Positions 17,073 to 53,503 of a stretch of DNA of 55,062 bases are shown piece after piece. The notes under the pieces were generated by a model. It was not told where the DNA came from. It saw nothing but the letters and a program-made list of their open reading frames with translations, and made no database searches. The translations under genes were made by a program, and so were the position numbers. Source of the DNA: Synergistaceae bacterium (GTDB taxonomy: Bacteria > Synergistota > Synergistia > Synergistales > Aminobacteriaceae); the NCBI GenBank assembly GCA_017448795.1, contig JAFSKV010000062.1:1-55062 (forward strand), written 5' to 3'. The stretch's first letter is position 1. Every line of letters begins with the position of its first letter.

Positions 17073-20000
17073 TTGCTCAAGCCTCACAGAATTTTCCTGC
17101 TGGCTTTGATTTTACTGCTGGCAAGTTCGGCGGCCATGTCTGCCCCTGCACGTTCAGGAATGCCGACGGGAGTAAGGAGCTTTGCCCCGACAGGAACAGT
17201 ACCCGACAATGTTTCTTTCCGTGTCGTTTTCGCCAGCCCTGTGGTGAACAGAGCGCAGACAGGCAAGGCTATAACCCCCGAAAACCAGCTGTTCCCGTTC
17301 GAGGTCAACCCCCCGCTCCAGCTTGAAGGACGGTGGCAGAATGAGCGCACATTCACGGCCCGGCTTCTTTCACCGCTTAGGAACGCCACGACTTACACAG
17401 CTTCTCTCAGGGAAGGCCTGAAGGACAGGCGGGGAAGCTCAATAGGTCCCGGCGAGTTCAGATTCCAGACAGAAGGACTCTCACCGTCAGACATACGCGC
17501 ATCAATGGGCAGGGACGGAAATGCATACTTCACGCTTACGTTCAACATGAGGGTTGACCCGGCAAGGCTCAAGGGCTACATGCGCATCATAAATTCAGAA
17601 GGCCGCGAAATGCCCTACACCATAAGCGGCGCGCTTCCCTCACGCGTCATAAGAGCCTCTGTCCCGGTCAAGAAGACTTCATCACGACAGAGATACACAG
17701 TGAGAATCTCAGCCGGACTCAAATCAGGCGAGGGAGACTTAGGGATTGACCGCGACATTTCCGAGAATGTGATACTTGACCCGGCTTTAATCGTTCAGGA
17801 ACTCAGCGCGTACAAATACAGCGAGAACACTATACGGGCTGTGATGAATTTCGGCGTTGACCCGGAGACAGTCAGGAATTTCGTTACTGTTGAGCCGTCA
17901 GCAGGAAATATAGAGTTCGGTTCAGGCTGGAGCGATGAAATTCTCGACATAAGAGCCGAGGGCTTCAAGCCTCGTTCTCGTTTCGTGATAACTTTCCGCA
18001 AGGGCTTTCCGTCAAAAGGCGGCCTTGTTCTCACGGAAGACTACAGCCAGGCGGTTATCATGCCCGACCTCAACACTGAGATAACACTTCCTGCGGCAGG
18101 GTCATATCTTGCACCGCTGGACAAAGGGCTTGTTCCTATTGAGCTGCTCAACGTCAAGAAGCTGCAGTTAGACTTGTGGCGCATGTATGACAACAACATT
18201 CCTCACGTCCTTCATGATGAATATGAGTATTTCAACAAGGACATTGCACAGAGAGTCTTCACGAGGGAGATTCCTTTAAGCCTCCCCCTGAATGAGAGAG
18301 TAAGAAGGAGCATACCTGTTGATGAGATGGCTTCAGGCGACAGGGGGCTTTTCCTTCTGACCGCAAGAGACTCTGAGGCTGAGGAATGGGAAGAATCAAG
18401 CCAGATGATTAACCTGTCAGACATGGGCGCAACCGTGAGAATGTGGGAAGACGCGGCTCTTGTGTGGGTGAACCGCCTCACTTCACCGGCAGGAATCAGC
18501 GATGCGACGGTCAAAATATTCTCGTCGAAAAAACAGCTCCTCGCGCAGGGCAGGACAAACAACGCGGGAGTCTTCTACTACGAAATCCCGGAAGGAAAGA
18601 CGTGGGACAATGACAATCTCCCTGACCTCGCGATAATCTCAAAGGGTAAGGAACTGACTTATGTCCGCCTAACACGCAACCTTCTTGACCGCGAAATGTT
18701 CGACACTTCCGGGCGTGAATGGCTCAAATCAGGTTATGACGGAGTGATATTCTCGCCCCGGGACATTTACAGGACGGGCGAACAGGCAGCATTCAAGCTC
18801 ATAGTCCGCAACCCCGACATAAGCACGCCTGATGCATTCCCTGTTATGTTCATAGTCAAGGACACTTTAGGCCGCAAGGTCAGGCAGGAAGCAATCACGC
18901 TCAACGCAAAAGGAAGCGCAATAGCAAACCTTTCACTTCCAGGCAACGCCATCACGGGGACATGGACAGCATATCTTGCAGTGCCGGGCAGTGAGTCAAA
19001 GCCCATAGCGAGCTGCAAATTCCGCGTTGAAGATTTCGCTCCTCCGCGCATTGAGGTGAAACTCAGCACTTACAGGCAGTACCTGATACACGGCGACACT
19101 TTCACGGCTGATATTTACGCGCGCTGGCTCTTTGGTGTTGACGGTGCAGGACTGGCATATAAAGCCGCGTGGTCAGCAAAAGAAGCAGAATTTACCCCCT
19201 CACAGGACAGATGGAAGGGCTACAGCTTCGGAGACCCGTCGAGGAAATTCGCAGCCGTAGAGAGCGATATAAACGAGGGAGAACTAGACAGCTTCGGAGC
19301 GGGCAAAATCAGCCTGAAGCTCGAGGACAGCTGGGAAGCCCCCACGCTCATAAACCTGACGCTAAGGACTGAGGTGATGGAGGACTCCGGCCGCTGGGTA
19401 ACGTCAACAATAACGCGCCCCTATTACGCCGCCCCGTGGCTTTTGGGAATAGCTCCAGTTACGGAGAATTTCGCGGTCAGGAATAACATAGACTTCCGCG
19501 TCGCCGGCATAACTCCCGATGAGGAACCCGCCAATCCCGGCGAGCTTAGGGCAGAGCTTTACCGGGTAACATGGAACTACAACATGGTTGAGATTGACGG
19601 AAGGAAACGCTGGCAGTCAACAGAGGAATTGCAGAAAGTCGAAGAAAAGAGCCTGACTCTCCGCAACGGACTCGGAACGGTCTCATTCAGGCCTGAGAGC
19701 TATGGGACATACCTTGTGAGGGTCAGCGACTCAGACGACAATGCGAGGGCTGTTTACAGGTTCTACGCTACCGATCCCCAGTATGCCGGAAGCGGCTCAC
19801 AGCTCATAGACAGGATAGAGATTACCCCCGACAAGGACACATACAGGCTGGGTGATACGGCTCATGTGAAGATACGCGCGCCCTTCGAGGGACTCATGAT
19901 GATTATGGTTGAGGGTGCAAAGCTGATTGACCGCAATGTGAGGATGGTCGAGGAGTCTGAATTTACGTTTGACATCCCTATAACGCAGGCACTGCGGCCA

Positions 20001-50945: not shown

Positions 50946-50975
50946 TTGACACGCATTGAGTGAACTCGGTATAAT
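50946..50975 (+). promoter_or_regulatory. Consensus promoter of the repeat surface-protein gene
   Basis: Perfect TTGACA (50946-50951) and TATAAT (50970-50975) separated by 18 bases, about 75 bases before the first ATG of the broken gene downstream. It also falls just after the rpsT terminator. Confidence 0.8.
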
Positions 50976-51050: not shown

Positions 51051-53263
51051 ATGGCACTACTGCTCATGTCCCAATCATCATGGGCATCTGTCAGCTACTT
51101 TGACGCGGACGGCAGCGAACAGACCTGCGATGAATACACTTCCGTAGCAAGCGACACAACCTCGTGGACTGACGGAGGCTGGGATGGAGCAGGCATAGGC
51201 GGCGGCTATAGTGGCTCAGGCGGAACTACAACCATCAACGGCGGCAATGTTACGGCTAATGGTGGCGAATATGGAGCAGGCATGGGCGGCGGCAAAAACG
51301 GCTCAGGCGGAACTATCACACTCGGCTGGACGAACGAGACTGAAGACTCCATATATGCCTCAAGCTACAAAGGGACTGTAACACTGACATCCGGCTTCCT
51401 CATTGACGGGGCTGACACTGAGACTGCGGCAATTCCCGGCAACATTGGCGGCAAGAAAATTGTCCCAAGCCTCAAAGTCCACGCTCTAAGTGCTGACAAA
51501 GAGATAGCGGCTGTTCCTTGGGAGGTTGAGGGCAAGACCGTAACACTGACACACAGCAAGGCAGGCTATAAGGCTGTCTACTCGGTCAATGGTGAGGCAA
51601 TAGAGGGCGACTCCTTCACGATGCCGGAAGCTAACGCGACAATCACAGCGACGTTCACCCCCATAGTCTACACGCTGACGTATGACCTTGCTGACGGGAG
51701 TCTTGCAGAAGGCGTGAGCAACCCGGCAACCTACACAGTAGAGTCCGATGACTTCACGCTGACCAATCCCACACGAGGACGGGCTATGACTTTACGGGCT
51801 GGACAGGGACAAGCCTTGACGTTGCCAGCACGGACTTAACAATCGCGCAGGGATCAATCGACAACAGGAGCTACACCGCTAACTGGACTCCCATTTCTTA
51901 CACGCTAACGTACGAACACAACGGAGGAACGGCAAGCAATCCCGAAAGCTACACGATTGAGTCCGCAGACTTCAAGCTCACGAACCCCACGCGCAACGGC
52001 TACACTTTCACGGGCTGGACACTCAGCGGCGATAACGAAGCGGCATCAGACTCGCTCACGGTCTCGAAAGGCTCAACGGGCAACAAGACCTACATTGCTG
52101 GCTGGAGCATCATCACCTACACGCTGACGTACAACCTCAATGGCGGCACTGCTGACAACCCCGCGAGCTACACAGTCGAGACGGACACCTTCACGCTGAA
52201 CTCGCCAAAGCGTGCGGGCTTCACGTTCAATGGCTGGACAGGGACAGAACTTACTGAGGCAACGGCTTCCGTAACGATCGCAAAAGGCTCGACAGGAGAC
52301 CGCGAATATTCGGCCGTCTGGGAAGAAGGAGGCTACAGCCCTGCCAACGAAAATGCGCCCGAGTTCGTGTACCACCAGCTCATCCTAAGCGGCCAGCTAA
52401 ACATGATGTTCTACGTCTACATTCCTGAAGCCTGGTCGCCTGATGACTGCACTATGGACTTTGACGTGAGCGGAGACATCTCGCAGAACGCGCAGGGCCA
52501 GAAGTACGCTGAGACCATCACATTAGACGGCGTTACATTCTACGGCTGGCAGTGCTGCGTGAACTCGGTGCAGATGGCCGATGAGATTCACGCCGCGCTT
52601 CATTACGGCTCAGGCCAGACGCTCACGCACAGTTACACGGTGAAGGAGTATCTTGACCTCCACGTGAACGACGAAAGCCTCCCGGACGACACGAGGGAGC
52701 TTGCACGGAGCATTGAGGACCTGGGGGGCTACGTTCAGCCTGTTCTTGCGGCGGAAAACAGCTGGACTGTCGGCGAAAAACACGCGAAGATGGACCCGGC
52801 TTATGACTTCAAGGATACGGACTTCAACACGGTGAGCAATGACACAGCAAGTGATGCCATAAGCTACACGATACCTGACGGCTCCGGCATCGCGAAGGTG
52901 AACTACACGCTCCTTCTTGACGCGGCGACAACGATTGAGGTCTGCCTGACACCCAAGAGCGATTACACGGGGGCTGTCTCTGTGTACGTTGACGGAGGGA
53001 CTGAGGACATGGCCGAGTCTGATGGCGGCGTTTACGTTGTCCGTATCAGTGATATTCCTGCGCACAAGCTCGCCAAGAAGCACACTCTCACGGTCGTTAC
53101 GGGGGATGTCAGCTTTGACGTTGAAGTGTCGGCTCTGTCCTACGTTCACGCGGGTATACGCAGGGACGATGACAATCTGAGGCGGGCGGCAACAGCGATA
53201 TACCGTTACTGGGACGCTAACATGACCTACAGGCAGAACCGGCCTGACGAGTACCACGACTGA
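51051..53263 (+). pseudogene. Frameshifted surface protein with Listeria-Bacteroides-type repeats
   Basis: One gene in two frames. The first part (51051-51839) has a truncated-looking signal peptide (ALLLMSQSSWA), Gly-rich AGIGGGYSGSGG and AGMGGGKNGSGG units, and the first YTLTYD...NPxxYTVES..FTLTNPTR repeat (Flg_new, PF09479 type). About 51775-51785 the frame changes by -1 or +2; the second frame continues with YDFTGWTG and two more such repeats, then a ~300-residue C-terminal domain (about 52370-53263) common at the end of gut-bacterial surface proteins (SALSYVHAGI...AATAIYRYWD). Joined it would be ~737 residues. There is no Shine-Dalgarno before ATG 51051 and no canonical in-frame start further up. 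It may be a decayed gene or an assembly indel. Confidence 0.7.
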
Positions 53264-53273
53264 GGGGGTGAAC

Positions 53274-53459
53274 ATGATGGACGCAAAGAAAGAGTACGAG
53301 ACTCCCGAAGCTGAGGTGATAGGCTTCACGGACGGGGACATAATCACAGCGAGTGATACGAGGCTTAATTTCCAGTCATTGCCATTTTCTCCGAGTACTC
53401 CGAGCCTTCCGAGTATTCCGAGTCTTCCGGACCTTCCAGACCTTCCGAGCCTGTTCTAG
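53274..53459 (+). CDS. Small YETPEAEV-type peptide with C-terminal P-x-L repeats
   Basis: A 61-residue peptide starting (M)MDAKKEYETPEAEVIGFTDGDIITAS, a pattern seen in many small gut-bacterial proteins of unknown role that follow large surface-protein genes. The C-terminal half ends in seven consecutive Pro-(Ser/Asp)-(Leu/Ile/Thr) tripeptides and Phe, encoded by 9-bp units (53391-53453). No signal peptide and no cysteine. It begins 11 bases after the stop of the broken surface-protein gene with GAGGGGGTGA as ribosome-binding site, so it shares its transcript. A cleaved or modified peptide is possible but unproven. Confidence 0.65.
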   Translation: MMDAKKEYETPEAEVIGFTDGDIITASDTRLNFQSLPFSPSTPSLPSIPSLPDLPDLPSLF

Positions 53460-53464
53460 TCCGC

Positions 53465-53503
53465 AAAAAAACCGGGAGACCCTTCCGAGTCCCCCGGCAG
53501 TTT
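53465..53503 (-). terminator. Terminator of putP, shared with the small peptide gene
   Basis: CCGGGAGAC pairs with GTCCCCCGG (one A-C mismatch) around CCTTCCGA. The seven A before it give a T-tract on the minus strand, so it mainly ends putP; it may also act on the plus strand. Confidence 0.7.

Follow-up and report, generated by a model that had tools for sequence, protein, structure and literature searches.

A small open reading frame (ORF) of 61 amino acids at positions 53274..53459 of the window, by which we mean the whole 55,062-nucleotide stretch of Synergistaceae DNA analyzed here, is probably (we put it at roughly 0.7) a precursor peptide that an RRE-dependent, RiPP-like pathway modifies. 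This reading follows from the peptide family to which the ORF belongs, the enzyme genes that adjoin its homologues, the genome-wide co-occurrence of the peptide with one of these enzymes, a nucleotidyltransferase, and the missing lasso-type B2 protease (27 genomes) and full-length cyclase (the ORF's own genome). On this reading, an orphan family of small proteins from gut and rumen bacteria gains a testable function, linked to four enzymes open to joint assay.

The small ORF and its setting in the window

The ORF, defined from the ORF list and its homologues, lies on the forward strand, as do all window features below unless stated otherwise, and would encode 63 amino acids if translation started at a GTG upstream of the ATG. 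Neither it nor the surface-protein ORFs of the window matched Pfam or NCBIfam models above cut-off. The conserved part of the alignment corresponds to a proposed leader, M1-S27 (53274..53354), which contains YETPEAEVIGFTDGDIITAS and whose border is provisional. The proposed core, or tail (53355..53456), differs among copies, as judged from an alignment of the copies in the same genome and from tail statistics. Within the tail, seven 9-bp units (53391..53453) encode P-(S/D)-(L/I/T) tripeptides in the order PST PSL PSI PSL PDL PDL PSL, followed by a final Phe. The preliminary description had singled out this run of seven and its Phe end, and both the sequence and a shuffle test bear it out: among 100,000 shuffles of the tail, no more than three such units occurred in a row. 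Tandem repeats finder (TRF) reported two intervals, 53390-53429 with period 9 (and 18) and 53424-53447 with period 9, in agreement with the proposed 9-bp repeat; that the repeat is expandable was a surmise, and other unit numbers were never seen.

Upstream lies a surface-protein gene in two frames. Its 3' part, delimited by frame reading, is an open frame of 503 amino acids (51752..53263), and its 5' part, in another frame, spans 262 amino acids (51051..51839) with weak beta-helix and InlB-like matches below cut-offs. The gene switches frame within the InlB-like repeat (51752-51839), which reflects either a true frameshift or an assembly error. A conserved C-terminal (CT) domain occupies 52880..53251 (E 3.4e-53 in a search with a profile that itself includes the window sequence). 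The TGA stop of the surface gene (53261-53263) is separated from the ATG of the small ORF (53274) by 10 nt, so that the close spacing reported earlier stands with 10 nt in place of 11, and a likely ribosome-binding site read from the sequence, GAGGGGG (53262..53268), overlaps the stop. A promoter-like site, TTGACA-18-TATAAT, precedes the surface gene (50946..50975; 12/12 in a consensus scan, which is not functional evidence), and a terminator-like hairpin (53471..53498, reported on the reverse strand) lies between the peptide gene and a convergent symporter gene, in a scan that yielded no more such hairpins than shuffled sequence. Because the promoter-like site stands before the surface gene and the hairpin after the small ORF, the two genes may form one transcription unit.

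A peptide family and the enzymes that accompany it

The genome from which the window comes (G000; 86 contigs) holds seven copies of the peptide in six loci, and a 26-row model found the peptide in 12 of the 43 genomes of the genus. A narrower 7-row model gave no match in 38 other genomes of the family, drawn from 19 other genera. Named relatives at 23 loci belong to Synergistaceae and "uncultured Fretibacterium" MAGs and, among gut and rumen Firmicutes, to Lachnospiraceae, Ruminococcus (including R. flavefaciens YRD2003), Solobacterium and others. The recurrence of the N-terminus claimed in the preliminary description is thus far above chance. That account had named inconsistent neighbors or an unconserved N-terminus as findings that would count against it; we looked for both, and found consistent neighbors and a conserved N-terminus. 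The leader-like N-terminus, YxxPExEVIxFxxEDVITTS, is common to the family and the tail is variable, so that by alignment these proteins have the conserved leader and variable core of RRE-dependent RiPP precursors. In an alignment of 26 sequences drawn from the two phyla, E12, D20 and S25 never vary, and Y6, I22 and T23 hardly do. When the leaders were compared with the YxxPxL type, the Y was almost invariant; the P was present in the majority and frequently substituted.

The tails of the genus are constrained in sequence. T-x-[LMTVI]-P was present in 28 of 40 tails versus 2.5 in shuffles and a C-terminal F or Y in 20 of 40 versus 2.8, counts in which related paralogues are not independent. Most genus tails have T-x-x-P where the window tail reads TRLN; here TRLN replaces TRLP, the Pro repeat is added and the -LF end is retained. 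The closest paralogue (contig C23) has a leader almost identical to that of the window and a very different tail. Tails from Firmicutes (n=60) mostly lack the genus motifs, and many are short and acidic; some comprise just 4 to 8 residues, an unusual length for a natural product.

Several genus peptides and some Firmicutes peptides adjoin a gene set encoding an HPr-kinase-like protein (HprK), a PqqD protein, an S26-type peptidase, a nucleotidyltransferase of the NTP_transf_5 family and, often, an ABC exporter. We compared 33 enzyme loci, picked by PqqD, nucleotidyltransferase or peptide matches, two of which, L059 and L208, are the same place; of the 32 distinct ones, 14 have a peptide at, or one gene removed from, the HprK/PqqD genes. 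In some genomes HprK is fused to PqqD or the S26-type peptidase to the nucleotidyltransferase. The window's genome has one enzyme cluster, on a contig (C22) separate from the window, with neither a recognized peptide nor an ABC gene. It stands behind a gene for a papain-like protease with a Lectin_like domain and the same CT domain (L104 6052-8778). With similar arrangements in G060, G059, G030 and G034, the PqqD cluster follows a large-protein gene in five genus genomes. In G060, a protein with type I restriction-modification domains is encoded immediately 3' of the cluster (L110 10892-14308), and G059 and G030 have ORFs similar to it in start and size.

The cluster proteins retain the hallmarks of their families. 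The PqqD of the window's genome scored 38.9 bits against a Pfam cut-off of 23.4, and the nucleotidyltransferase matched NTP_transf_5 (PF14907) with E 9e-40 and 137.3 bits against a curated cut-off of 31.2. Conserved motifs comprise SGTGKSTH (P-loop) and NDDKP in HprK, SMxP/LHR/GDN in the S26-type enzyme and MSDxDI in the nucleotidyltransferase. We modeled a single read-through chain that joins the peptide to HprK and PqqD (L116). Its pLDDT was 74-79 for leader residues 1-20, which include a predicted strand at 12-16, and below 50 for residues 19-60, which make up tail and linker. The HprK part resembled PEPCK (Z 13.4) and HprK/P (Z 11.8) over parts of the model, and structures of these two kinds filled the list of matches, so that the comparison bears on the HprK part. 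The S26-type enzyme matched TIGR02754 (2e-7) and TIGR02228 (4e-9), both below cut-off; across the S26 models no score exceeded the curated cut-off, the best being 36.6 of 51.85 bits (TIGR02228), and by eye we saw no N-terminal membrane helix. It keeps the Ser, His and GDN motifs of the Ni-superoxide dismutase maturation protease and archaeal-type signal peptidase; it differs from these in its sub-cut-off scores and its place in a peptide-modification cluster. A phmmer search of PDB sequences with the PqqD, S26-type and HprK proteins of the window's genome returned no matches, and in PADLOC the peptide and the four cluster enzymes matched no defense model.

To gauge co-occurrence we counted whole genomes. 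The 100 peptides collected with the peptide HMM (matches below 17 bits discarded) came partly from loci picked for their enzymes, and the relatives on which that HMM had been trained stemmed from the same search; we therefore drew co-occurrence solely from the genome-wide genus and Firmicutes counts. In the genus, the nucleotidyltransferase was present in 10 of 12 peptide-positive genomes versus 1 of 31 others (Fisher 3.6e-7, relatedness ignored). The two exceptions are incomplete assemblies (G023, 80%; G029, 87%), and the G023 cluster runs off its contig. PqqD was present in 12/12 peptide-positive genomes, adjacent to the peptide in several, versus 11/31 others. In the Firmicutes family of G081 (the R. 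flavefaciens YRD2003 genome), 14 of 148 genomes have the peptide and 27 have the nucleotidyltransferase over cut-off, which amounts to 14/14 peptide-positive genomes versus 13/134 others (Fisher 1.4e-12, relatedness ignored), the latter being 13 nucleotidyltransferase-positive genomes without a peptide match. Sub-cut-off PF14907 matches (4/31 Firmicutes genomes) were scored as negative in the motif and family tally. Five of 18 Firmicutes nucleotidyltransferase stretches (L194, L206, L207, L209 and L210) lack PqqD, HprK and S26-type genes. Two of the genomes concerned, G205 and G127, are peptide-positive and have their nucleotidyltransferase away from that set; a third, G120 (L207), is also peptide-positive and has a second nucleotidyltransferase that adjoins PqqD (L205).

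One further genus genome, G045, gave a match (E 0.0485, 9 residues) that was left out of the peptide-positive count, in which it would be the 13th. It marks a peptide remnant on contig C34 (~17880-17950; L240/L262) that keeps DVITTS and the tail and lacks the front of the leader. The remnant lies 25 nt after a CT domain and is followed by an HprK-like gene and then the contig end. In R. flavefaciens YRD2003, a radical SAM gene stands between the peptide and HprK genes (L193 6367-7746), and the window's genome encodes elsewhere a PqqD-radical SAM-SPASM protein (L105 5122-6546).

A lasso-like tailoring kit and a proposed route

In the full-text literature searched, three papers combined HPr kinase with PqqD, each of them about lasso peptides. 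Paeninodin, pseudomycoidin and the bsf cluster (phosphorylated or phosphoglycosylated lasso peptides) share with the family described here a YxxP-like leader, in which a Thr ahead of the proposed cut hardly varies, and their clusters share PqqD/RRE, an HPr-kinase homologue, a nucleotidyltransferase and an ABC exporter. A study of rumen bacteria likewise places HPr kinase, PqqD and nucleotidyltransferase genes within lasso clusters (PMC7533575). The differences are as marked. Instead of the PF13471 B2 protease of lasso clusters, for which none of 27 genomes had a match over the cut-off (a single sub-threshold match occurred in G127), the clusters here have the S26-type peptidase, and several precursors are dispersed away from the cluster. 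In lasso clusters a fusion of the nucleotidyltransferase with the B2 protease is sometimes seen (PMC8498205); here its fusion partner, where it has one, is the S26-type enzyme. The window's genome has no full-length PF00733 cyclase, only two fragments (best E 1e-4, 67/354 positions). PF00733 matches of some kind were found in 23/27 genomes, mostly full-length in Firmicutes, and denote a family match alone, not a lasso-cyclase assignment. The absence of PF13471 and the fragmentary PF00733 disfavor a lasso identity for the peptide.

The features shared with phosphorylated lasso clusters, namely the YxxP-like leader, PqqD, HprK-like, nucleotidyltransferase and ABC proteins (PMC8498205 and PMC10368454), would also fit a decayed lasso system. 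We consider this highly improbable: besides the missing B2 protease, the gene set, S26-type peptidase included, is found again in each of two phyla with its catalytic motifs intact, and decay would neither add a conserved peptidase nor preserve tail motifs. In a lasso system, substituting Y, P and L of YxxPxL had only a small effect (PMC10368454), and the leader motif by itself therefore proves little.

We favor the precursor reading, in which the peptide appears to use the lasso tailoring kit without lasso formation. The N-terminus (YxxPExEVIxF...DVITTS) would dock on the PqqD/RRE protein, the HPr-kinase-like enzyme would place phosphate on Ser/Thr of the precursor, and this phosphate might then receive a sugar or a nucleotide from the NTP_transf_5 enzyme. 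Lasso clusters have just such a pair, a kinase homologue that puts phosphate on the precursor and a nucleotidyltransferase that attaches hexoses to this phosphate (PMC8498205). Phosphoglycosylation of the peptides here is a tentative proposal, at somewhat below even odds. The S26-type Ser/His peptidase would cleave close to the T-(T/A)-S motif and so free the tail of its leader, and the ABC exporter, present in the clusters of many genomes and not seen in that of the window's genome, would export the tail. In the window's genome, the single C22 cluster would serve all seven precursors in trans. The preliminary description had suggested a cleaved leader plus an exported or modified peptide; the adjoining enzyme genes and the genome-wide co-occurrence support this idea, with the amendment that the leader is part of the small ORF itself and not of the surface protein.

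Coupling to surface proteins

The CT domain occurs 56 times in 11 of the 43 genus genomes, and a peptide lies within 700 nt downstream of 39 of these 56 genes (within 230 nt in 36 of the 39), confirming within the genus the earlier remark that large repeat proteins are neighbors. Conversely, 39 of 52 peptide matches, a total that includes the G045 remnant, come first after a CT domain. Among the 17 CT-domain genes lacking a peptide, 5 directly precede an enzyme cluster; 9 of the remaining 12 were inspected, yielding one leaderless tail and otherwise no visible peptide. In the window's genome, five of seven copies stand directly behind CT-domain genes, the sixth is in tandem with one of these and the seventh has no such gene. 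Over all loci, the 100 non-redundant peptides have a CT-type ORF ending within 300 nt upstream in 55 cases, another ORF in 37 and neither in 8. The frequency of peptides downstream of CT-domain genes argues for a partnership with the surface protein, which we rate as a real prospect a little short of an even chance. As coupling in the genus, the proposed pairing is genuine. In Firmicutes, many of the large genes that precede a peptide seem to encode exported products, and a signal-peptide rule (a crude hydrophobicity measure that misses cases) was satisfied by 29 of 43 large upstream ORFs that were complete. The pairing is weakened by partnerless peptides in G027 and G040 and by structure prediction. 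In a model of one chain that reads from the CT domain through into the peptide (L107), pLDDT was below 50 for residues 297-335, which cover most of the peptide, so that no ordered peptide was predicted next to the CT domain in one chain, and the model had no PDB match at E <= 0.001. The two read-through chains were modeled with different small alignments (16 and 8 rows).

The same coupling could mean that the peptide is an unmodified accessory of the surface protein, such as an assembly factor or small subunit, and that the enzymes act on the CT domain. The position of the peptide just behind CT-domain genes, the co-presence of the two in 10 of 43 genomes and the enzyme clusters that directly follow peptide-less CT genes all suit such a role. 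We nevertheless regard it as rather unlikely, given that the peptides of G027 and G040 adjoin enzymes without any CT-domain match, that in Firmicutes the upstream ORFs are diverse yet the peptide tracks the nucleotidyltransferase in every case, and that the peptide is predicted to be disordered in a chain with the CT domain.

Another possibility, which we consider doubtful although likelier than an accessory role, is that the peptide is modified as proposed and acts as a secreted signal or antimicrobial, its position behind surface genes reflecting only shared expression or cassette dispersal. Its probability overlaps that of the precursor reading because the precursor part is common to both. 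Such a product would fit the number and diversity of precursors in a genome, which in the window's genome face a single enzyme set, as well as the short Firmicutes tails and the G040 peptides at a cluster without a surface gene. The tight association with a single type of surface C-terminus within the genus, and tails that are acidic or Pro/Ser-rich rather than cationic, argue against it.

Returning to the modified-precursor reading, the mature peptide would probably act with, or share regulation with, the surface protein, by analogy with QhpC, the gamma subunit of quinohemoprotein amine dehydrogenase. QhpC is likewise a RiPP-like small protein with a leader; it undergoes modification and cleavage while in the cytoplasm, leaves through an ABC transporter and becomes a subunit of a larger extracytoplasmic protein (PMC7876137). 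It differs in its radical SAM and flavoprotein chemistry and its subtilisin-type protease, and in the comparisons made no homology was found. Speculatively, and with the odds against it, the family may represent a RiPP class in two gut phyla that combines S26-type leader removal with HPr-kinase/nucleotidyltransferase tailoring (phosphoglycosylated linear peptides), in which precursors scattered behind surface genes and processed by one cluster supply each surface protein with a private modified subunit or anchor. Outside subscription journals and preprints, the literature searched contained no case of HPr kinase and PqqD with an S26-type peptidase or with surface-gene-linked precursors. Should the peptides indeed partner surface proteins, the surface proteins of commensals would include modified peptides as functional components, a role beyond that of a diffusible natural product, and many precursors dispersed through a genome would depend on a single cluster. 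The G040 locus without a surface gene contains five consecutive peptide genes 5' of an HprK-like gene (L108 685-1340).
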